The position numbers and the translations under genes were made by a program. Of a stretch of 31,573 nucleotides of DNA, positions 5,466-31,573 are shown one piece after another (within the stretch, counting starts at the first letter, position 1; each line of letters begins with the position of its first letter). The notes beneath the pieces were generated by a model, which had not been told where the DNA came from, searched no databases, and saw only the letters and a list, made by a program, of their open reading frames with translations. The stretch is from a virus: positions 1 to 31,573 of IMG/VR virus record IMGVR_UViG_3300006917_000090; one strand, 5' to 3'.

Positions 5466-5912
5466 ATGGAAACGGACTCTACCGAAACCGAACGCTTCGC
5501 GTCTCTCGCGGAAGCGCGCGCCGCCTATTGCGAACTCGAAAGCGAATCGCAGTCTTTACTCAACGAAGCCGACGCGAAAGTGACGGCGCTCCAGGCCGAG
5601 CTTCAAGCGGCGAACGAGCGGGCGGATAGCCATGAGGCAGACTTTAACGCCGCGAGCGAGCAGATCGAATCATTGAAAGCCGCGAACGCCGAAGCCGCAT
5701 CGAAGATCGCCGCCCTAGAAGCGAGCGCCAAAACCGCCGAAGCCGAAGCTGCCCGCATCGCCGCGAGCCTTGGCATTGACCCCGTTCAACTCGCCATCTC
5801 GCAATCCATCGCCGGAAACCAAATGAGCCGCAAAGAATTTGAAGCTCTCAGCCATCGCGCGCGCCGGGAGTTTCTCGCCGCTGGAGGCAAAATCGATCAA
5901 TCCACTATCTGA
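5466..5912 (+). CDS. Coiled-coil protein, candidate capsid scaffold
   Basis: This 148-residue Ala/Glu-rich protein has long heptad-like coiled coil from about residue 30 to 100, with a compact C-terminus (MSRKEFEALSHRARREFLAAGGKI). It sits between the prohead protease and the major capsid protein, the usual site of a scaffold, and is small and highly charged like lambda Nu3. The C-terminal helix resembles short conserved ends seen in phage proteins at this locus. TTGACA lies at 5446-5451, 14 bases before the ATG, with no Shine-Dalgarno site. Scaffold function is inferred from place and coiled coil. Confidence 0.7.
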   Translation: METDSTETERFASLAEARAAYCELESESQSLLNEADAKVTALQAELQAANERADSHEADFNAASEQIESLKAANAEAASKIAALEASAKTAEAEAARIAASLGIDPVQLAISQSIAGNQMSRKEFEALSHRARREFLAAGGKIDQSTI

Positions 5913-5938: not shown

Positions 5939-7087
5939 ATGCCCGCTAATACTCTTCCAAGCGCCATCGCGGACGCCTACAAGGCCGCTGAAATTGTCGG
6001 TCGCGAGTCGGTCGGCTTCATCAATTCGGTGATGCTCAACACCGGCTCCGAAAAAGTCGCTCTGAACGCGGCCGTAAAATCCCTCAAGACCGAAGCGCCG
6101 ACGCTCAATACCAGTGTCACGCCGGCCATGACGATCCCCGAGGGCGACGTCCAGACGATCACCGAAGCCAACTTCACCCTCGGCCAGGTCGCCAATGTGA
6201 TGATCAACATCACCGGCGAGGAACAGAAAACGCTCGATACCCACTACAGCTTCGAGACGGTCCACGGCAATCAGTTTCTCCAGGCGTTCCGCAAGATCCG
6301 CAACGCCATCGAGAGCTACCTTTGGGGCATTTGCTACAAGGGCGCGTCGCGGGCCATCGGGACCGCTGGCACGACTCCTTTCGGCAATTCCACCGTGGGC
6401 ATCGATGACATCGCTGAGATTCGCCAGATCATTTTCGACAACGGTTATCTCTCGAGCGGCGATATGTCGCTGGTGTTGAACTCCGCTGCCGGAACCAACC
6501 TGCGCCAGCTCGCGCAGTTGCAAAAGGTGAATGAAGCCGGCGGTGGCGACCTGCTCCGCAATGGCGAGCTGCTCAACTTGCAGGGATTCAGCATCAAAGA
6601 AAGCGCCGGCATCGGGACGCATACCAAGGGCAATGGAACCAGCTACCAGCTCTCCGCTGCCGAAGCCGTGGGAAGCACCACGATCAACGTTGATACCGGC
6701 TCCGGCACCATTCTGACCGGCGACGTCATCACCTTCACAGGCTACAGCGACAAATACGTCGTGAATACCACGATGACCGGCAACGCGGCCGTGATTGGCG
6801 ATCCTGGTATCCGGGTCGCTGTCGCGGACGATACCGCTGTCACGGTAACCGGCAACTACACGCCGAATGTCGGACTCAACCGGATGTGTGTCGAACTCGC
6901 CGCGCGCCCGCTGGCCGTCCCAGGCACCGATGCCGCGACCGACGTCATCGAGGTGCAAGACCCGCTCACCGGCCTGACCTACGAGATTCGCGAATATTCC
7001 GGATTCCACAAGAAGATGTGGTCGATCACGGTCGTCTACGCCGGGAAAGTCTGGCACCCGCAAGGCGTCGCAATCCTCATCGGTTAA
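5939..7087 (+). CDS. Major capsid protein, P22 coat-like
   Basis: This 382-residue protein has the sequence style of the P22 gene 5 coat family. It opens with an N-terminal arm (MPANTLPSAIADAYKAAEIV) and a VGFINSVMLN segment. A central DIAEIRQIIFDNGYLSSGDMSLVLNS-type region follows, then the conserved AGTNLRQLAQLQKVNEAGGGDLL and FSIKESAGIGTHTKG stretches, and a beta-rich insertion (about residues 235-310) that could be the extra surface domain. It should form the HK97-fold capsid shell. The 26-base leader is G-poor (AACTCTAACTATCTCAAG) with no ribosome site, perhaps an unstructured leader for high expression. A 378-residue antisense frame here is a shadow. Confidence 0.9.
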   Translation: MPANTLPSAIADAYKAAEIVGRESVGFINSVMLNTGSEKVALNAAVKSLKTEAPTLNTSVTPAMTIPEGDVQTITEANFTLGQVANVMINITGEEQKTLDTHYSFETVHGNQFLQAFRKIRNAIESYLWGICYKGASRAIGTAGTTPFGNSTVGIDDIAEIRQIIFDNGYLSSGDMSLVLNSAAGTNLRQLAQLQKVNEAGGGDLLRNGELLNLQGFSIKESAGIGTHTKGNGTSYQLSAAEAVGSTTINVDTGSGTILTGDVITFTGYSDKYVVNTTMTGNAAVIGDPGIRVAVADDTAVTVTGNYTPNVGLNRMCVELAARPLAVPGTDAATDVIEVQDPLTGLTYEIREYSGFHKKMWSITVVYAGKVWHPQGVAILIG

Positions 7088-13333: not shown

Positions 13334-15067
13334 TCAGTTGAGTTGGAAAACACGCATCGCCAAGCCTTCAACGAGCGTCGCCGCGCTACTGGCGATTTCC
13401 GAGGCCCATTGAAGCTGAACCGTCCCGGCGTTCGCGCCGTTTTCGAGGTATAGCGTGATGCGGATCGGATTCGCGGTCGTGCTAGTCCCGACCGTGACGT
13501 TCCCAGTTGATCCGAAGCCGGTGAACGGCTCGACACGAAAAGCATTGCTCGCGGTGAAAGCCAGCACCGAAGCATACATGGCATCTGGCGAGGCCGGCCC
13601 AGTGAACGCGACCGTGCATCCGACTGTGGTATTCGCCGAAGTCCAGAAGCCATCAATCTCGGCGTAGTAATCTTTGTTTGCTGCCGCTGAGAACGAAATC
13701 CCGGTAACGTCTGCCGGCGCGGTCGCAGTGCTGGTGAAATTCGCGGTGATGTAAGCGAGCGTCGGGACGCCAGGGTATCCCGTGCAGTTGGTCAGCGTGC
13801 CGCTCGAAGGCGTTCCGAGCGCGCCGCCGGAAAGGACGGCCGTGCCATCACCAAGCGTGATGTTGCCGGAAAGCGTGATCGTGCGGTCTAGATCGGCCGT
13901 GGCAATGAACAAGGTGCGATTGGCACTCAAGTCGCTATGCGGTTTCAGCGTCAGATTGTGGCTGGCGTTCGTGTCGAGCAGTTTTAGGCCGGTATTCGGG
14001 AAGGTCAGGCCGGTAGTCAGCGTTTGTCCGTCCGTGACGCCGCCCCCGCCTGGTGGCGCGCTCCACGTTCCGTTGCCATACCATACGGTCGTGGCGTTCG
14101 CGTTCGTTCCGCCGCCGAGATTCGTCACCGGAAGATTCCCGGTAACGTGCGAAGTGTTCGCCAGATCGACCGCGCCGCGAGTCAAAACTTGATTGGCAAG
14201 TGTCAGGTAGGTTCCGGCCCCGGCAACCGTTACGTCTCCACTGTTCGTCCCGCCGACAGTGGCGTTCGCGCTGAATGTCAGCGTCCGATTTGCATCTCCC
14301 GTGACGATAGCCACAGAGCGATTGGCGCTCGCGTCCTCCGCGCTGTAGATCGTGACGAGGTGATCGTCGGCGGAATCGTTGATCCTGATTGCCTCGAAGC
14401 GCGGGCTGGCGTCGGTCGTCAGATCCTGATTGACGAGTGATGCCGCCTCGACCGTCAGCGCCCCGGAAAGCGTCACCGTTTGGCCCTGGATCGTTCCAAG
14501 GTTCGCGAGGGTATCGATTGCCGCCTCAATGGTCGCCTCCGTGGTGGCGTCCAGCGCATCGATATTTTGCAACGTGGTTGTGCCGCTCGAATCGGATAGG
14601 ATTTCCACCGCGCCGAAGGCGAATTTGCCGGAAGCGGCAACCGCAAGCGTGTCCGAAGTAGTGTCGAAAGTCAGCGCCGAGTCGCCCTCGATCGTGCCGT
14701 CGCCGGTCCACACGCCAATCTGGTTGTTCGCCGGAGTTCCGACTTTGGTAACGTCCCCGCCTCCAGTCGAAGACAGGGTTGTCCCGCTCATGCTCAAGCC
14801 GGTGCCGAGAGTAATTTCCTCAAAGTCGCCAGCGCCCCCCGCGCTACCGCGCCCCACCAGTTTCGAGGCGCCGGATGCCTGCACTAGATTGGCGAAGGGG
14901 AGGTCGCCAGTCACGTTTCCGGTCAGCGACACGTTTCCAGCCGTGATCTGCTGGCCGCTCAAAGTTAAATAAGTATGTCCAGCCAGCGTCACTGGAGTGG
15001 AATTGTCCGTCCCGGCTGCGTCCACGCCTATCGAGGTTCTAAGCGTGGCCCCGCTCTCCCGACCCAC
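13334..15067 (-). CDS. Tail fibre, C-terminal fragment of a frameshifted gene
   Basis: This 577-residue frame starts at GTG 15067 and overlaps the 734-residue frame by 40 bases. Its first residues (ESGATLRTSIGVDAAGTDNS) continue a repeat that the upstream frame loses when it switches register. The body consists of repeats such as GNITLGDGT, FSANATVGGTNSG and DTNASHNLTLKPHSD, typical of trimeric beta-structured fibres. The last 140 residues (DVTGISFSAAANKDYYAEIDGFW onward) form a distinct non-repetitive domain, probably the receptor-binding or trimerising tip. Without repair the tip would be separated from the shaft, or made from an internal GTG. Confidence 0.75.
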   Translation of the reverse strand: MGRESGATLRTSIGVDAAGTDNSTPVTLAGHTYLTLSGQQITAGNVSLTGNVTGDLPFANLVQASGASKLVGRGSAGGAGDFEEITLGTGLSMSGTTLSSTGGGDVTKVGTPANNQIGVWTGDGTIEGDSALTFDTTSDTLAVAASGKFAFGAVEILSDSSGTTTLQNIDALDATTEATIEAAIDTLANLGTIQGQTVTLSGALTVEAASLVNQDLTTDASPRFEAIRINDSADDHLVTIYSAEDASANRSVAIVTGDANRTLTFSANATVGGTNSGDVTVAGAGTYLTLANQVLTRGAVDLANTSHVTGNLPVTNLGGGTNANATTVWYGNGTWSAPPGGGGVTDGQTLTTGLTFPNTGLKLLDTNASHNLTLKPHSDLSANRTLFIATADLDRTITLSGNITLGDGTAVLSGGALGTPSSGTLTNCTGYPGVPTLAYITANFTSTATAPADVTGISFSAAANKDYYAEIDGFWTSANTTVGCTVAFTGPASPDAMYASVLAFTASNAFRVEPFTGFGSTGNVTVGTSTTANPIRITLYLENGANAGTVQLQWASEIASSAATLVEGLAMRVFQLN

Positions 15068-17232
15068 GCGGACCCATTGCCGATCAAAACCGTATTGTCC
15101 GCTGGCGCGATGGCAGCGATGGCGGTCAAATTTGCGCTCGCAGCCTGGAAAGCCGCCGATGATTGCCCGTCGAGCAGATCGGCATCCAGCCCGCTCCCGG
15201 CCCCGTCAACCGTCAGGAGCGCGGCGAGGATTTCAGCGGCCGTTTGATCTGCGGTCGCGCCATCCTCGACATTGAGCAACGTTCGGATCTGCGTGGCGGT
15301 CGCGTCCTCTGGATCGCCCGTGCTGGCAGTGATGCGGGCTTTGATCGTCGATGCCGCCATGTTCGCAAGCTTGGCGTTGCTCACCGCGTCGTTGGCGATG
15401 GTTGCCGCGAAGCTTCCGCTCCCTGAGCCGGTCACATCTCCGGTTAGAGTGATCGTCTGATCGCCCGTGTTCGTGCCGCTGATGGTCGCGTCTCCGCTAA
15501 AGGTAAGCGTCCGGTCAGAGTCGCCGGTTGTGATCGTCAAAACTCGATCTGCCGTGATGTTCGATCCCGGCACAAGCGAAAGCCCGTGGCTTGCGTTCGT
15601 ATCTTTGACCTTCAGTCCTGTGTTGTTGAGGTAAACGCTCGTTATGTCGGTATTCGCACCTGATGCCGCCTTGGCGTTCCAGGTCGCGGCGCTGGAAATG
15701 TAGGAATCGCCGATGGCCGTTCCGTTCCAAGTCCCGTTCGCGATTGTTCCGACCGTGACGATGGAATCATCCCCGGAGTAGGTGCCGTTGGCGACCGAAA
15801 GCAGCGTTCCGTTGAACGCCTGCACATCCGTCCCAATTACCAAGCCGAGAGCGGTCCTCGCTGCGCTCGCGCTTGTCGCGCCCGTGCCGCCGTTGGCGAT
15901 TGGGAGCGTCCCGGTCACGTTACCGGAAAGCGAGACATTCCCCGCCGTAATCTGCTGGCCCGAAAGCGAAAGGTAAGTGTGCCCGGCGAGCGTTACCGGC
16001 GTTGAATTGTCGGTCCCGGCCGCATCGACCCCGATCGAGGTTCGCAGCGTCGATCCGCTTTCGCCTACCCATGCAGTCCCGTTGCCGATCAGGACCGTGT
16101 TATCGGCCGGCGTGATCGCCGCGATGGCCGTTAGGTTCGCGCTCGCGGTCTGAAATGCCGCCGATGATTGACCATCGAGGAGATCCGCATCGAGAAGTGA
16201 TCCCGCGCCATCAACGGTCAAAAGCGCCGCGAGTATTTCGGCCGCCGATTGATCCGCAGTCGCCCCAGTCTCGATGCCGTCGAGCTTGGACGCGTAGGTC
16301 GAGGACATCAACCCTTTAACGGTCGCGTTCGCCAGCCGGATGTCGTCGCTGCCGTCAACGTGGGAGGCGGCATGAGCGGTAGGCGTGCGCGCATCGGTAA
16401 ACCGCGAGTCATCCCCGAGGGCGACAGTTCCGGCACTGGTGCCAGTGTTCAACGTCGAGCTATTGCCAAGGCCGAGAGACGTTCGCGCCGTGGCACCAGA
16501 TTCGCCCACAAAGGCCGTTCCATTGCCGACGATAAAAGCGTTGTCCGTCGGTGCCAACGCGCCCAGCGTCGTCAGGTTGGCATTGGCGGCCTGATAGGTG
16601 CCGTCGTGGTTGTGATTGCCGAGAGCAACGGTAGTCCCGTTCGCGCCGGTGTTGAGCGTGGACGAATTACCGAGGCCCGTTACCTGCGTATTGGCGATCG
16701 AGAGATTTCCCTGGTGCGTCGTCACGGCCGCGCTTGTGACCGCCGAAACAGTGCCGGATAGCGTGAGGTTTCCGCTGCTGGTAATCGGCCCGCCTGAGAA
16801 CGAAAGGCCGGATACCGAGGTATTCGCGTTGACGCTAGTCACGGTCCCGTTGCCGCTGCCGCCGGATACCGTGGAAAATGAACCGTTACCGTAAAGGACG
16901 GTGCTAGAATTGCCGTCCAGATTTATCGTGGAGACATTACCCAAGCCGAGATTGGACCGCGCAGCCGTCGCATTAGCCGCCCCGGTGCCTCCGCTCGCAA
17001 CGCCAAGCGTGCCCGACAAACTGAGATTTCCGGAGCTGGTGATTGGCGAACCGCTGAAGCTCAGGCCGGTGAGCGTTGTGTTCGCGCCGACGCTCGTTAC
17101 CGTGCCGCTTGCAGACGATCCCGCAGGCCCGTGGAAAGTCTCAATTACCCGAACCTCATCATCCGGAATGACAACGTCAATCCGCCGCAGCGATTCATCG
17201 ACGGTGACTGTGATATTGGCGACTTCTGGCAT
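15028..17232 (-). CDS. Tail fibre, N-terminal and shaft portion of a frameshifted gene
   Basis: This 734-residue, Gly/Thr/Ser/Asn-rich protein starts one base after the stop of the preceding gene. The opening domain (MPEVANITVTVDESLRRIDVVIPDDEVRVIETFHGPAG) probably attaches to the tail. The shaft contains motifs such as GGTGATSASAARTALGLVIG, LSGNVTGTLPIANGGTG and YLSLSGQQITAGNV, common in phage fibres. The frame ends abnormally (VGRAGPRLEPR) where the paralogous internal repeat reads VGESGSTLRTSIG. One missing base in a G-run near 15058-15060 explains it. Restoring one base gives a single 1299-residue fibre. Confidence 0.75.
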   Translation of the reverse strand: MPEVANITVTVDESLRRIDVVIPDDEVRVIETFHGPAGSSASGTVTSVGANTTLTGLSFSGSPITSSGNLSLSGTLGVASGGTGAANATAARSNLGLGNVSTINLDGNSSTVLYGNGSFSTVSGGSGNGTVTSVNANTSVSGLSFSGGPITSSGNLTLSGTVSAVTSAAVTTHQGNLSIANTQVTGLGNSSTLNTGANGTTVALGNHNHDGTYQAANANLTTLGALAPTDNAFIVGNGTAFVGESGATARTSLGLGNSSTLNTGTSAGTVALGDDSRFTDARTPTAHAASHVDGSDDIRLANATVKGLMSSTYASKLDGIETGATADQSAAEILAALLTVDGAGSLLDADLLDGQSSAAFQTASANLTAIAAITPADNTVLIGNGTAWVGESGSTLRTSIGVDAAGTDNSTPVTLAGHTYLSLSGQQITAGNVSLSGNVTGTLPIANGGTGATSASAARTALGLVIGTDVQAFNGTLLSVANGTYSGDDSIVTVGTIANGTWNGTAIGDSYISSAATWNAKAASGANTDITSVYLNNTGLKVKDTNASHGLSLVPGSNITADRVLTITTGDSDRTLTFSGDATISGTNTGDQTITLTGDVTGSGSGSFAATIANDAVSNAKLANMAASTIKARITASTGDPEDATATQIRTLLNVEDGATADQTAAEILAALLTVDGAGSGLDADLLDGQSSAAFQAASANLTAIAAIAPADNTVLIGNGSAWVGRAGPRLEPR
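15056..15061 (-). other. Probable single-base deletion (frameshift site)
   Basis: On the - strand GTC GGG AGA GCG should read GTC GGG GAG AGC GGG by comparison with the internal repeat copy at about 16055-16075, which reads GTA GGC GAA AGC GGA. The + strand segment here is 15 bases long and the paralogous one is 16. Inserting one base joins the 15028-17232 and 13334-15067 frames into a 3900-base gene with no stop. Confidence 0.8.
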
Positions 17233-23127: not shown

Positions 23128-23155
23128 TTGACAGGCGGTGACTCGCGATTTATCT
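23128..23155 (+). promoter_or_regulatory. Promoter candidate upstream of the early operon
   Basis: A perfect TTGACA at 23128-23133 follows an A/T-rich tract with two AATATT copies (an UP-like context). After 16-17 bases comes TTATCT or TATCTC, a weak -10. A start site near 23162 would give a very short leader before the ATG at 23165. This is the only place with an A/T-rich upstream tract, so it is the best promoter candidate of the window for the recT operon. Confidence 0.45.
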
Positions 23156-23164
23156 CGTTGCAAG

Positions 23165-23317
23165 ATGAAAGTCTCAACAACCGTATCAATTGATTCCGGC
23201 CTTCTTGCGAAACTGCGGAAGCTCGCCAAGGGACAACGCCGAAGCGTTTCCGCCCAGCTTGAGCAATGGGTGGCCGAAAAGATCGCCCTCGCCGAAAGCG
23301 AGAAAGCCGGAAAGTGA
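23165..23317 (+). CDS. Ribbon-helix-helix DNA-binding protein (50 aa)
   Basis: This 50-residue protein fits the ribbon-helix-helix fold: a short strand (KVSTTVSID), helix A (SGLLAKLRKLAKGQ) and helix B (SVSAQLEQWVAEKIALAESE). Such dimers bind DNA with the N-terminal ribbon and often repress their own operon (Arc, MetJ, omega). It is the first gene after the promoter candidate and lies 110 bases upstream of the CAC array, so it could regulate the recombination operon or bind the array. No Shine-Dalgarno site; TTGACA is 31 bases upstream of the ATG. Confidence 0.65.
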   Translation: MKVSTTVSIDSGLLAKLRKLAKGQRRSVSAQLEQWVAEKIALAESEKAGK

Positions 23318-23323
23318 ACTGCC

Positions 23324-23422
23324 GTGAAAACTGAAGAAGCCCTCTCCGCCCTGCTCCTGTTCGCGGTCCTGATCGCGATCCCTGTCTTAGTCCATGCGCT
23401 CAACGAGGCGCTTTGGCCGTGA
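23324..23422 (+). CDS. Tiny single-span membrane protein (32 aa)
   Basis: A GTG start after a 6-base gap gives a 32-residue peptide. It begins with MKTEEALSALLLF and consists of one hydrophobic helix (LLLFAVLIAIPVLVHAL) with a short polar tail. The in-frame stop ends just before the recT leader. Such tiny membrane peptides are usual in phage early operons, but function is unknown. The call is moderate because of its length. Confidence 0.4.
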   Translation: MKTEEALSALLLFAVLIAIPVLVHALNEALWP

Positions 23423-23434
23423 ATTTTTCCGCCA

Positions 23435-23504
23435 CACCGCACCGCACTTCACGGCACTACACTACACGTCACGGCACGCCACAACACCTCACAAAACATC
23501 ACTT
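23435..23504 (+). repeat. CACNN pentamer array in the recT leader
   Basis: From 23435 the triplet CAC occurs at 23435, 23440, 23445, 23450, 23455, 23460, 23465, 23470, 23475, 23480, 23485, 23490 and 23500; at 23495 it is AAC. The two-base spacers vary (CG, CG, TT, GG, TA, TA, GT, GG, GC, AA, CT, AA, AT, TT), so this is not a simple copied repeat but a fixed triplet at a fixed 5-base period. It ends 6 bases before the recT ATG and fills most of an 88-base gap that has no Shine-Dalgarno site. A 5-base period cannot be set by codons. See findings. Confidence 0.9.
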
Positions 23505-23510
23505 ACGCCC

Positions 23511-24473
23511 ATGAAAACCGAACTAGCGCCGCTGGCGCAACAACCCACCCCGCGCTCTGCCCTCTCCGCGATGGCATTGCGCTTCAACGTCGAGCCTGCG
23601 AAGCTGCTCGACACGCTCAAGAATACCGCGTTCAAGGGCGCGACCGATTCGCAGATGATGGCGCTTTGTGTCGTTGCGAATGAATACGGGCTAAACCCGT
23701 TCACTAAGGAAATCTATGCTTTCCCCGATTCCAAGTCCGGCGGCATCGTCCCGGTGATCGGAGTTGATGGCTGGTTTCGGATCGTCAACGATCACCCGCA
23801 GTTTGACGGCGTGGAGTTTGAGGACGCGGAAGATGCTGACGGCAACCTGATCGCGACCGAGTGCCGCATTTTCCGAAAGGACCGCAGCCGCGCGACGATC
23901 ATTTCCGAGCATCTCAGCGAGTGCCGCCGCAACACCGACCCGTGGAAAAACTCCCCGCGGCGGATGCTTCGCCATCGTGCCTTCATCCAATGCGCCCGTC
24001 TCGCCTTCGGGATGGCCGGCGCCGATCCCGAGGACGCGGAACGCATGATCGAGCGGCCCGCGAAAGGCCGTGTCGTGGTCGCGCCTGAAACGATGTTCAA
24101 GGCGCCGGCCTTACCCGACAATTCTCCAATCGCCGCCGAGCAATCGGCTGGTATTTCCAGCGGGGTTGCTATTGTCCCCACTCATCACCAGGAGGCCGCA
24201 GGACTGGATAGCCAAGAAGCCTCCGGCGATTCGGAGATCTTTTCGCTCGAAGCAGAAGACACGTTTCCGGCCGATGCTGCGCCAGATGTGCAGCTCGACT
24301 GGCTTTGCTCTCGCGGCGGCATGAGCGAGGCAGAGCTATTCGGTATCCTTCACCGCGCGAAGCTCGTCGGCCCTGAAATCAAAAGCGCCGCGGCGATGAG
24401 CGACAAGCAAATCGCTAAGGTTGTCAAGTCGTGGGATGGCATCCTCGCCGAACGGGAAGGAGGTGCGGCGTGA
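23511..24473 (+). CDS. recT: RecT/Bet-type single-strand annealing protein
   Basis: The start at ATG 23511 was chosen because the longer frame runs through the CAC array. The 320-residue product has the Bet/RecT core: SALSAMALRFNVEPAKLLDTLKNTAFKGATDSQMM at about 17-50, LNPFTKEIYAFP at 60-71, GVDGWFRI at 84-91 and PRRMLRHRAFIQCARLAFG near 150. Members anneal complementary single strands and act with an exonuclease, here probably the gene at 25117. The C-terminal third is acidic and low in complexity, as is common for host SSB or partner contacts. The stop overlaps the next GTG. Regulation may act through the leader array. Confidence 0.92.
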   Translation: MKTELAPLAQQPTPRSALSAMALRFNVEPAKLLDTLKNTAFKGATDSQMMALCVVANEYGLNPFTKEIYAFPDSKSGGIVPVIGVDGWFRIVNDHPQFDGVEFEDAEDADGNLIATECRIFRKDRSRATIISEHLSECRRNTDPWKNSPRRMLRHRAFIQCARLAFGMAGADPEDAERMIERPAKGRVVVAPETMFKAPALPDNSPIAAEQSAGISSGVAIVPTHHQEAAGLDSQEASGDSEIFSLEAEDTFPADAAPDVQLDWLCSRGGMSEAELFGILHRAKLVGPEIKSAAAMSDKQIAKVVKSWDGILAEREGGAA

Positions 24474-25120
24474 GTCTCGCCAAGGAAGAACTCGCCGATG
24501 TGCTGGAAAAGCACGCGAAATGGCTGCGGAGCGAGGAGGGTTGCAATCGAGCCGACCTCTCTCGAGCCAACCTCTCTCGAGCCGACCTCTCGCGAGCCAA
24601 CCTCTCGCGAGCCGACCTCTCGGGTGCCTGCCTCTTGGGTGCCGACCTCTCGGGTGCATACCTCTTGTGTGCCGACCTCTCGCGAGCCAACCTCTCGCGA
24701 GCCGACCTCTCGGGTGCCTGCCTCTTGGGTGCCGACCTCTCGGGTGTATACCTCTTGGGTGCCGACCTCTCGGGTGCCAACCTCTCGCGAGCCAACCTCT
24801 CGCGAGCCGACCTCTCGGGTGCCTGCCTCTCGGGTGCCTGCCTCTCGGGTGCCTGCCTCTCGGGTGCCGACCTCTCGGGTGCCGTGGCGGCATGGGCGCA
24901 GATCGCGTTTATGGGCCACGGCGAAAACGGTCGGATGCTGACGGCTTACCGGGTAGGGAAAGACGATCCGACTGTCTTTCAGTGCGGCTGCTTTTGGGGA
25001 GACGAGGCCAATCTGCGCGAATACATCGCCAACGGGGCGGCTCATTTTCGCCCGTCGCGCACGCTCGCGCTCCAAGCGGCCATTGAGCTGATCGCCATAG
25101 AAAGAGGGGTGGCGCCATGA
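24470..25120 (+). CDS. Pentapeptide-repeat protein
   Basis: It starts at GTG 24470, which overlaps the recT stop and has a strong AAGGAGGT site 5 bases upstream; a longer frame from 24431 would sit inside recT. The 216-residue product opens with an N-terminal helix (LAKEELADVLEKHAKWLRSEEG). Twenty-two A-[DNCY]-L-[SL]-x pentapeptides follow (about residues 27-136), forming a right-handed quadrilateral helix. An 80-residue C-terminal domain contains FMGHGENGRMLTAYRVG and CGCFWGDEANLREYIANGAAHF. This architecture occurs in many phage proteins. Pentapeptide helices can mimic DNA and bind gyrase (Qnr-type). It separates the annealase from the exonuclease. The coding strand is made of near-identical 15-base units. 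Confidence 0.85.
   Translation: MSLAKEELADVLEKHAKWLRSEEGCNRADLSRANLSRADLSRANLSRADLSGACLLGADLSGAYLLCADLSRANLSRADLSGACLLGADLSGVYLLGADLSGANLSRANLSRADLSGACLSGACLSGACLSGADLSGAVAAWAQIAFMGHGENGRMLTAYRVGKDDPTVFQCGCFWGDEANLREYIANGAAHFRPSRTLALQAAIELIAIERGVAP
24548..24877 (+). repeat. Tandem 15-base repeat coding pentapeptides, with a 90-base duplication
   Basis: Twenty-two 15-base units (variants of GCCGACCTCTCGCGA and GCCTGCCTCTTGGGT) are nearly identical even at synonymous positions. Within it 24591-24680 and 24681-24770 are head-to-tail copies of 90 bases that I read as differing at only two positions (GCATA/GTATA and TTGTGT/TTGGGT). Such near identity indicates recent tandem duplication and likely copy-number change between relatives. 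Confidence 0.85.
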
Positions 25121-26875: not shown

Positions 26876-27057
26876 AAACAAACCATCGAACCTGCCAAAG
26901 AACCGGCTGCAAAGCCACCTGTCACGGCGCAACGAGCCGATGCCTGAAGCACCTGCTCGAGATGCGCGAATACAACCGCGCGCGCTACCGTGCCGCCAAC
27001 GGCATACCAATCGACGCGCCGCTTTCCAAGCGCGGAAGACCGAGGGACGCGAAATGA
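26872..27057 (+). CDS. Small Cys-rich basic protein
   Basis: This 61-residue protein has four Cys (CQRTGCKATCHGATSRC), so a small zinc knuckle is plausible. A basic helix (REYNRARYRAANG) and a tail KRGRPRDAK, with a GRP like an AT-hook, follow. It may bind nucleic acid. It is coupled by ATGA to genes on both sides; the following helicase starts on its stop codon. No family name is offered. Confidence 0.55.
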   Translation: MKTNHRTCQRTGCKATCHGATSRCLKHLLEMREYNRARYRAANGIPIDAPLSKRGRPRDAK

Positions 27058-29255
27058 AAATGCTATCTTACGATGATTTCATCGCGGCAAAGTCGCGCCG
27101 CGCTCTTTCTTCCGGCTTCGATCCGTTGCCGATCAGAACCGCGCTGTTCGACTGGCAAGCGAACGTCGTCCGATGGGCGGTCAAGCAAGGCCGCGCGGCT
27201 CTTTTCGAGGACTGCGGGCTGGGCAAGACGCTCCAGCAACTCGAATGGGCGGATCAGGTCGCGCGGCACACAAGCCAGCCCGTGATCGTATTGACGCCCC
27301 TCGCCGTGGCTCACCAGACCGCAAAAGAAGCGGAGAAGTTCGGGATCTCGGCCGTCGTCGTTTCGGCTGGCGAGGAAGTCACGGGACCGGGAATCTACAT
27401 CGCCAACTATGAAAAGCTGGCGCATTTCGATTCGGTCAATTTCTCCGGCGTCGTCCTCGACGAATCGTCGATCTTGAAAAACTTCACCGGCAAGATTCGG
27501 ACGCAGTTGACGGAACGATTCGCAGCGACTCCCTATCGGCTCTGCTGCACGGCCACGCCATCGCCGAATGATTACTCTGAGTTTGGGCAACACGCTGACT
27601 TTCTCGGCGTCTCGACTCCGGCGCAGATGCTCGCCACGTTCTTCATCAACGACACGTTCAACACGGGCGATTGGCGTCTGAAAAAGCACGCTGAGAAATC
27701 ATTCTGGGAATGGGTTTCTTCGTGGGCCGCTTGCGTCGGTAAACCATCAGATATTGGCTTTTCCGATGACGGCTACATTCTCCCGGCGTTGAACATGGTC
27801 AGCCGCCCAGTCGATGTCGATTGGACCGAAAGCGCTGGCGATGAGCTGTTCCGCAACCCATCGCTATCGGCGACGACCCTCCACGATGAGTTGCGACTTA
27901 CCTGCCCGGCTCGCGCCGCCGCCGCCGCTGAACTTGTGAATGGATCGGATGAATCATGGATCGTCTGGTGCAATACGAATTACGAAGCCGATGAACTGGT
28001 CCGGCTGATCCCGGATGCCATCGAGGTTCGCGGGAGTGAAAAGGCATCATTGAAGGAAAAGAAGCTGGACGATTTCACCGAAGGCCGCGCGCGCGTGATC
28101 ATCACCAAACCGGGCATCGCTGGCTATGGCTTGAATTGGCAGCACTGCCATAACGTCGTCTTTGTCGGCCTTTCCTATTCATTCGAGGACTTCTATCAGG
28201 CGCTCCGGCGCTCCTATAGATTCGGCCAGGATCGCGAGGTGAACGCCTACGTCATCCACGCGACAACGGAGGATAGAATCATTCAGACCGTCCAACGCAA
28301 GATCAACGCCCATCAGCAGATGATGGAGAAAATGAAGATCGCTTCCGCTGCGTTCAAAGATTCACAAATGAAAAAGCCAAAGATGAAAACCGACATTGAA
28401 TCAGAAGAAAAAGACGGATGGAAAATGTATCACGGCGATTGTGTCCGAGTCGCCAAGACGATCCCGGATAAGTCCGTCGACATTTCCGTTTTCTCGCCGC
28501 CGTTCTCGGACCTGTTTACTTACTCGGACGATCTGCAAGACATGGGAAACACGTCGAACCTGGAGGAGTTCACCGCTCATTTTGAACTGCTCATCACTGA
28601 GATTGCGCGCGTCATGGTTCCGGGCCGAATCGTCGCCGTCCATTGCGTTGATCTGCTGGCGACGAAATGGAAGCATGGATACATCGGCTATCAGGATTTC
28701 AGCGGTGAGATTATCCGCGCATTCTGGCGGCACGGCTTCATCTTCCATTCCCGCGTCACGATCTGGAAGTCGCCAGTCACCGAGATGCAGCGCACGAAGG
28801 CGCACGGACTGTTGCACAAGACGCTTTGCAGTGACTCGTCATCGTCTCGGACCGGATCACCGGATTACCTTGTCGTCTTGCGGGCGCCAGGCGAAAACCC
28901 GAAGCCAGTCACGAAGTCGAAACAGGAATACCCGGTTTCCTGGTGGCAGGAGGTCGCATCGCCAGTCTGGATGACGGTCGATCAGGGGAACGTCTTGAAT
29001 CGTGACGGGGCGCGAGACTTTGCCGACGAAAAGCACATCTGCCCGCTTCAACTCGATGTTATCGAGCGGGCGATCACACTGTGGAGCAATCCCGGCGATC
29101 TCGTTTACTCGCCGTTCGCCGGCATCGGCTCCGAAGGATACATGGCAACGAAGATGGGACGCCGATTCATCGGTTCTGAACTTAAGGAGAGCTATTTCCG
29201 GCAGTCTTGCGCGAATCTGGCAAACGCAAACTCCCAGCTCGAGCTGGCAATCTGA
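27054..29255 (+). CDS. SNF2-type helicase fused to DNA methyltransferase
   Basis: This 733-residue two-part enzyme starts at ATG 27054 on the previous stop. The N-terminal half is an SF2/SNF2 ATPase: Q-motif FDWQ at 32-35, Walker A CGLGKT at 54-59, DESS at 136-139, TATPS at 166-170 and QALRRSYRFGQ near 382. After a Lys-rich linker (about 435-455) comes a methyltransferase in circularly permuted (beta) order, with motif IV SPPF at 481-484 and motif I FAGIGSEG near 687. SPPF is the form usual for N4-cytosine methyltransferases, while adenine enzymes more often have (D/N)PP(Y/F/W). The target recognition region is the segment between them. No endonuclease domain is fused, but a VRR-NUC nuclease follows 7 bases later. 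Confidence 0.9.
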   Translation: MKMLSYDDFIAAKSRRALSSGFDPLPIRTALFDWQANVVRWAVKQGRAALFEDCGLGKTLQQLEWADQVARHTSQPVIVLTPLAVAHQTAKEAEKFGISAVVVSAGEEVTGPGIYIANYEKLAHFDSVNFSGVVLDESSILKNFTGKIRTQLTERFAATPYRLCCTATPSPNDYSEFGQHADFLGVSTPAQMLATFFINDTFNTGDWRLKKHAEKSFWEWVSSWAACVGKPSDIGFSDDGYILPALNMVSRPVDVDWTESAGDELFRNPSLSATTLHDELRLTCPARAAAAAELVNGSDESWIVWCNTNYEADELVRLIPDAIEVRGSEKASLKEKKLDDFTEGRARVIITKPGIAGYGLNWQHCHNVVFVGLSYSFEDFYQALRRSYRFGQDREVNAYVIHATTEDRIIQTVQRKINAHQQMMEKMKIASAAFKDSQMKKPKMKTDIESEEKDGWKMYHGDCVRVAKTIPDKSVDISVFSPPFSDLFTYSDDLQDMGNTSNLEEFTAHFELLITEIARVMVPGRIVAVHCVDLLATKWKHGYIGYQDFSGEIIRAFWRHGFIFHSRVTIWKSPVTEMQRTKAHGLLHKTLCSDSSSSRTGSPDYLVVLRAPGENPKPVTKSKQEYPVSWWQEVASPVWMTVDQGNVLNRDGARDFADEKHICPLQLDVIERAITLWSNPGDLVYSPFAGIGSEGYMATKMGRRFIGSELKESYFRQSCANLANANSQLELAI

Positions 29256-31139: not shown

Positions 31140-31573
31140 GCTTCAACCTCTCCCCGAAGCGCACGCGATCACCCTGGTTTGCCTTTTACCCGGACGACTG
31201 GACGGGGGGAACACGGGTAATGACTCTCGCCGCTCGTGGGGCATATCTCGATCTCTTGGCCTACCAATTCGCGAGTGGCCCGATCCCGAAAGACGACCGC
31301 GCCATTTGCCGGATCATCGGAGCGTTTCCGGATGAATGGGACACGATCAAGGGTGAAATCCTTCCAAAGTTTGAGGAAACCGAATCAGGATTTGTGAACC
31401 GAAGGATGGAAAAAGAGGCCGACGAAAGGTCCGAAATCCGTTCAAAACGTGTAGAAGCGATAAACAAAAGGTGGAACAAACCGAATACAAATGAAATACA
31501 AACCGGATACAAAAGTATCGATTCTGTAGATACGTCCCCGTCCCCGTCCCCGTCCCCGTCCCCGTCCCCGTCC
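31136..31573 (+). CDS. DUF1376 (YdaU-like) protein, truncated at the window edge
   Basis: The N-terminal 146 residues are visible. WFAFYPDDWTGGTRVMTLAARGAYLDLLAYQFASGP is the DUF1376 signature, and PKDDRAICRIIG and FVNRRMEKEADERSEIRSKRVEAINKRWN complete the domain. DUF1376 proteins are found before DnaB/DnaC-type or other replication genes in many prophages and are thought to act in DNA replication initiation. A Ser-Pro linker (SPSPSPSP) begins at about residue 134 and runs off the window. Start at ATG 31136 on the ATGA overlap. Confidence 0.88.
   Translation, partial: MSFNLSPKRTRSPWFAFYPDDWTGGTRVMTLAARGAYLDLLAYQFASGPIPKDDRAICRIIGAFPDEWDTIKGEILPKFEETESGFVNRRMEKEADERSEIRSKRVEAINKRWNKPNTNEIQTGYKSIDSVDTSPSPSPSPSPSPS
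31534..31573 (+). repeat. GTCCCC hexanucleotide repeat at the window end
   Basis: The six-base unit GTCCCC repeats about 6.7 times to the last base, coding Ser-Pro in the DUF1376 linker. Tandem low-complexity codon repeats are common in such linkers. The repeat runs into the window edge, so its full length is unknown and an assembly break at the repeat is likely. Confidence 0.85.

Follow-up and report, generated by a model that had tools for sequence, protein, structure and literature searches.

A CACNN array before recT in a virus contig as a probable CAC/NN variant of VIPR guide RNAs

The DNA analysed here is the whole 31,573-nt stretch of the virus record IMGVR_UViG_3300006917_000090 of IMG/VR (the window). 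Directly before its recT gene it carries 12 CAC triplets in an exact 5-base step, and we conclude that this array is very probably a guide RNA of the VIPR type (vrRNA), in a CAC/NN variant. VIPR (Viral Interference Programmable Repeat), described in 2026 and seen as what may be a precursor of CRISPR, comprises a phage RAMP protein, Vipr, whose guide RNAs are built of GGY/NN pentanucleotides, together with the accessory gene vap (PMC13142463, preprint, doi 10.64898/2026.04.26.720920). As described there, vrRNAs have 9 to 16 pentanucleotide units with a fixed triplet GGY "or a related consensus", one target base is skipped per unit, the skips fall on wobble bases, rival phages are targeted, and the vrRNAs of the SUSP1 clade have a conserved structured 3' tail (PMC13142463). 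An earlier note on this DNA had stated that no such phage element was known to be described, a statement that the preprint supersedes, and CAC/NN may already fall under its "related consensus" (PMC13142463).

The array and its neighbors in the window are as follows.

23138 to 23317, + strand: gene for a ribbon-helix-helix (RHH)/ParD-like protein; no link to such arrays seen elsewhere
23324 to 23422, + strand: 32-aa hydrophobic ORF that stops just 5' of the array (sequence)
23424 to 23430, + strand: TTTTTCC 5' flank (sequence; enriched 5' of related arrays)
23435 to 23492, + strand: CACNN array of 12 units, proposed as the guide portion of a vrRNA of CAC/NN type (sequence, chance test, vipr/vap-tied arrays elsewhere)
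23495 to 23500, + strand: AACATC, proposed 3' tail (same string 3' of arrays in loci L020, L021, L023, L027, L029 and others)
23511 to 24473, + strand: recT (Bet-type annealase), directly 3' of the array (Pfam RecT, 1.3e-24)

Direct reading of positions 23420 to 23515 gave, in order, TTTTTCCGCCA, the CAC array, AAAACATCAC, TTACGCCC and the recT ATG at 23511. The first CAC lies at 23435 and the twelfth starts at 23490, and the spacers, read 5' to 3', are CG CG TT GG TA TA GT GG GC AA CT AA, with 8 different pairs among the 12. Beyond the 12 units stand an AAC at 23495 and another CAC at 23500, and both are better taken as belonging to the tail AACATC, as it appears behind related arrays. The strict step of five that had been claimed (12 CAC from 23435, AAC at 23495, CAC at 23500) was confirmed by this reading and by shuffles; when a five-unit version of the pattern was allowed up to 2 mismatches, all of its 11 matches in the window fell within the array stretch, against 0.02 expected from shuffles. 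The array is therefore far outside chance expectation and is a real feature, and its length of 12 units is within the published vrRNA span of 9 to 16. The distance to recT needed correction, since the last CAC ends at 23502, leaving 8 bases before the ATG where 6 had been given. The sequence before recT bears out the remark that it holds no Shine-Dalgarno site. An ORF runs open from 23394 through the array into recT, and this is uninformative, because CACNN cannot contain a sense-strand stop codon in any frame.

Folding predicted an unstructured RNA for the array leader, with -4.1 kcal/mol, a weaker fold than in 194 of the 200 shuffles, and no stable fold resembling the structured 3' tail of SUSP1 was predicted for it, only the short common AACATC being present. 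No sigma-70-like promoter was found for the array, no Rfam family came close to threshold, and a tandem-repeat scan together with the sequence gave no CRISPR-array organization, that is, no long direct repeats with long unique spacers.

To collect similar arrays, IMG/VR was scanned for eight in-step CAC triplets, and the 115 stretches obtained split into two classes, uniform microsatellites and spacer-diverse arrays like that of the window. The diverse class comprises 140 distinct arrays, mostly of 9 to 14 units, in which the period stays 5 while the spacers drift, with an entropy of 3.92 of 4 bits; this answers the period-versus-spacer check proposed in the earlier note. Diverse arrays stand repeatedly 5' of two genes encoding proteins of ~190 and ~165 aa, often several to a contig, and share short linkers, TTTTCC on the 5' side and AACATC or GACAAC on the 3' side. 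Within 16 nt upstream, TTTTCC was present in 31 of the 140 related arrays (background 0.4%) and TTTCC in 59 of them (background 1.6%). The array in the window has both the TTTTCC flank and the AACATC tail of this family.

The two genes were identified by comparison with phage SUSP1, which carries one of the published VIPR systems with vap1 and in whose genome two genes and the GGY/NN arrays flanking them were located as the reference. The ~190-aa protein matched SUSP1 Vipr (hhalign E 8.6e-9; iterated HMM E 1.5e-23), and the Vipr profile matched PDB chain 36pp_D, "SUSP1 Vipr protein", with E 5e-7. A structural model of the same protein (pLDDT 89) matched, in Foldseek, the Cas7-like/Csm3-type RAMPs of type VII and type III systems (E 4e-8). 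The ~165-aa partner matched SUSP1 Vap1 (HMM E 4.6e-15; hhalign E 1e-4), and PHROG 4652, of function unknown, is the same family. Judged by these profile comparisons, the array-linked proteins are homologous to Vipr, a relative of the CRISPR RAMPs, and to Vap1 of SUSP1.

Vipr and/or vap genes were present in the fetched DNA of 52 of the 63 IMG/VR loci with diverse CACNN arrays. Three more such loci (L014, L105, L113) have them elsewhere on the whole contig, and a further two (L046, L086) lie on contigs that also carry vipr-bearing loci, for a total of 57/63 with vipr or vap on the contig, whereas none was found at the 52 uniform loci (0.5 Mb). In the reverse direction, Vipr loci were fetched by protein alone, and a period-5 array, defined by the same triplet at no fewer than 8 of 10 steps within a 220-nt leader, was found in 25 of 88 leaders, compared with 1 of 1017 control pieces. 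The fixed triplet in these loci was mostly CAC, GGC or CGC (the pattern search having favored CAC loci beyond their share). Its distribution over the Vipr tree is clustered, with 11 changes against 24.9 when shuffled. The triplet of the window array is CAC and not GGY; CAC arrays flank vipr homologues, and GGC and CGC occur in other Vipr loci. In two Vipr loci (L143, L182) the triplet that stays constant in the period-5 arrays is GAC or GTC, which hints at further guide alphabets. CAC/NN arrays of 53, 33 and 34 units were also seen (L041, reverse strand, 5498 to 5800 and 6525 to 6702; L059, 822 to 994); they are far above the published 9 to 16 and are possibly fused or staggered guides. A tblastn search with one CAC-type Vipr against 50,697 phage records gave no match.

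These associations bear on what reads the array. The core inference of the earlier note, a nucleic-acid-level register of 5 nt for an oligomeric protein, fits the linkage to vipr and its RAMP product. Its suggestion of a TRAP-like ring was apt in general style, but NAG does not fit as the triplet, and the protein linked to the arrays has the Cas7-like fold of a RAMP; a TRAP-binding site itself was rejected on the triplet, which is CAC and not (G/U)AG. The other readers proposed were RecT itself and the RHH protein, either of which, like a TRAP-like ring, would bind the register and regulate recT. The position of the array directly before recT, with no Shine-Dalgarno site, speaks for such control. 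However, the leaders of 15 recT relatives (52 to 70% identical to the window recT) contain no array, which shows that it does not belong to recT as such, and most similar arrays precede vipr, vap or other, unrelated genes. Arrays in other phages accompany vipr and vap rather than recT, and no RHH link was seen. We therefore regard control of recT by any of these proteins as strongly disfavored and very improbable. Equally small is the chance that we give to a microsatellite or to a simple translation enhancer that is CA-rich and unstructured: the leader is indeed CA-rich and predicted to be unstructured, and uniform CACNN microsatellites do occur in other contigs, but a strict period combined with 8 different spacers is explained neither by slippage nor by mere CA-richness, and it is the diverse, phased arrays that go with vipr and vap, the uniform ones (0/52) having neither.

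The place of the array before recT can be understood from VIPR loci of related phages, which can adjoin recT in the order vipr-array-vap-array-recT; the window would show only the recT-proximal guide of such an order. Three Vipr loci have the order vap-array-recT (L080, L085, L089), with RecT subfamilies that differ among them at the same place. The array ends 30 nt before the recT ATG in L085 and L089, and L080 is a complete vipr-vap-array locus with the order vap-array-ORF61-recT, whose recT fragment shares 67% identity with the window recT. A recognizable recT lies within 2.5 kb in 15 of 140 vipr/vap loci. The 61-aa hydrophobic ORF of L080 lies between array and recT, the 32-aa hydrophobic ORF of the window lies 5' of the array, and we note a resemblance only. 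Directly after recT, at 24431 to 25120, the window has a gene for a pentapeptide-repeat protein with ~22 copies of a 15-bp repeat.

Neither vipr nor vap was found in the window's 31,573 bases, and the record is linear and probably a fragment. With 31.6 kb lacking both genes, the array is either an orphan guide or one whose partner lies off the contig. A search for relatives of this phage by terminase gave one 6.4-kb contig with 98% identity that does not include the array region; the best named terminase relative is Verrucomicrobia phage P8625 (25%). Elsewhere in the window, 13334 to 17232 (- strand) holds two long adjacent ORFs with near-identical repeated blocks, resembling duplicated tail-fibre genes; 26940 to 29255 is a single long ORF in which an SNF2-type helicase is joined to an N6/N4 DNA methylase; and at 31533 to 31573 nearly seven copies of CGTCCC run to the very end of the contig, where the assembly may simply have stopped or may have been broken by a genuine repeat.

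Guide function was approached through target searches. For the window guide, three overlapping 8-unit seeds gave 13 hits in IMG/VR, the best with 20 of 24 positions, about what chance gives, and no convincing target. When 303 period-5 guides were compared with 2.3 Mb of fetched loci, allowing skips of 0 to 4 nt, no target rose above chance; the best 3-nt-skip matches in this local search were a homologous array. The CAC guide of L140 had one 2-mismatch hit among 301 genomes of its order, in a phosphatase-like gene and out of codon phase, and that of L034 had three 8-unit hits, two of them in codon phase in phage genes, with the ninth unit mismatched. Because the CAC/NN guides overall had no clear target in the searches made, the skip rule is one that we infer for the window array.

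A clearer result came from Paracoccus litorisediminis (L146), where a CGC/NN guide of ~13 units lies beside vipr. Searched as 12 units of NNxNN, it matched 6 of 298 Rhodobacteraceae genomes, while the reversed-pattern control matched 0 of 298. Five of the six matches (three of them examined in full context and two through the matched sequence) encode DPL(I/V)ERVTLVKP of a GpA-type phage terminase, with every skip on the wobble base of a codon. Units 1 to 11 were perfect in 3 genomes, the only mismatches being in the trailing AA unit, and the chance of an 11-unit match is estimated at ~1e-4 (2.3e9 positions over 4^22). The sixth match, in a different gene with 3 mismatches, is what chance would give. 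The natural target of this guide is thus likely the terminase large-subunit gene of other Rhodobacteraceae prophages and, as read from these genomes, the match is the published VIPR behavior seen independently for a non-GGY alphabet. The guide/terminase match concerns L146 together with L242, L243 and L245. No target was found for a second Paracoccus guide.

In the mechanism that we propose by homology, RAMP-fold Vipr subunits would hold the RNA by its invariant CAC triplets, with one subunit every 5 nt, and the NN pairs would jointly spell a DNA target, read as NNxNNx so that each unit passes over one target base. Vipr and guide together would then attach to a gene in a competing phage and silence it. 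For the window array, transcription, loading into Vipr, DNA targeting and the silencing of rivals are steps we infer. The partner Vipr may be encoded on an unsequenced part of the phage, or it may act in trans from another element in the same cell. A more tentative idea, which we consider possible though doubtful, is a free-standing CAC/NN vrRNA, by which a phage without Vipr would use, against its rivals, the Vipr of another phage resident in the same cell, or would block that Vipr as a decoy. Two contigs with clear arrays and no detected vipr (L024, L047) would be further cases. The array of L047 (8087 to 8174, - strand) is diverse, has 16 CAC/NN units, and lies ~100 bp past the 3' end of recT on the opposite strand, making it a second orphan-like case beside recT.

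Two further explanations start from the missing vipr and vap. The array might be the relic of a VIPR locus that lost both genes, its last guide left without function in the recT leader. The gene order, which is that of L080, L085 and L089 minus vipr and vap, suits this, but long neutral decay would hardly have left all 12 CAC intact and in step, and we hold the relic to be improbable. Rather less probable still is an orphan decoy, in which the array would mimic a vrRNA and soak up or misdirect the Vipr of a rival phage or of the host. RNA anti-CRISPRs, which mimic crRNA repeats, offer a parallel; the lack of vipr and vap on the contig, the clear arrays of L024 and L047, and a window guide with no target found in IMG/VR are in keeping with it. 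On the other hand, the spacers are as diverse as in working guides, the contig is incomplete and may lack vipr through assembly, and related recT-proximal arrays belong to full loci. The confidence given to a VIPR-type guide overlaps with that given to decoy or relic, because each of these would still be a vrRNA-type array.

Compared with known systems, the window array agrees with VIPR vrRNAs in being phage-encoded and built of tandem pentanucleotides in which a fixed triplet alternates with hypervariable NN, in having sister loci that adjoin homologues of vipr (RAMP) and vap1, and in that a sister CGC/NN guide follows the 1-nt-skip rule with wobble-phase skips. It differs in its CAC in place of GGY, its short unstructured tail, its contig lacking vipr and vap, and its place in the recT leader. 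CAC loci generally seem to have no structured tail, so this trait separates the CAC variant from SUSP1, not the window from the CAC group. With Class 1 CRISPR crRNAs it would share RAMP subunits along a guide RNA, the array-linked protein having a fold like Cas7/Csm3, but here there is no repeat-spacer array, there are no cas genes, and the target information would be noncontiguous. TRAP-binding leaders (~11 (G/U)AG triplets) likewise combine evenly placed triplets, free spacers and an oligomeric protein reader; they differ from the present CAC, strict step of 5 and RAMP link. RNA anti-CRISPRs (Racr) are phage-borne orphan guide-like RNAs without an effector gene, as the window array may be; it differs in its diverse, possibly targeting NN positions, and for which decoy action is putative.

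CAC/NN and CGC/NN guide alphabets are now linked to the Vipr protein family beside GGY/NN, and the fixed triplet broadly tracks the lineage of Vipr. Some VIPR-type loci adjoin recT, and some guides lie on contigs with no visible Vipr. Recognition of the fixed triplet by Vipr and the possible action of guides in trans have thereby become testable, and the CACNN-type pattern is an easily searched DNA signature with which many further systems of this kind can be sought in metagenomes.
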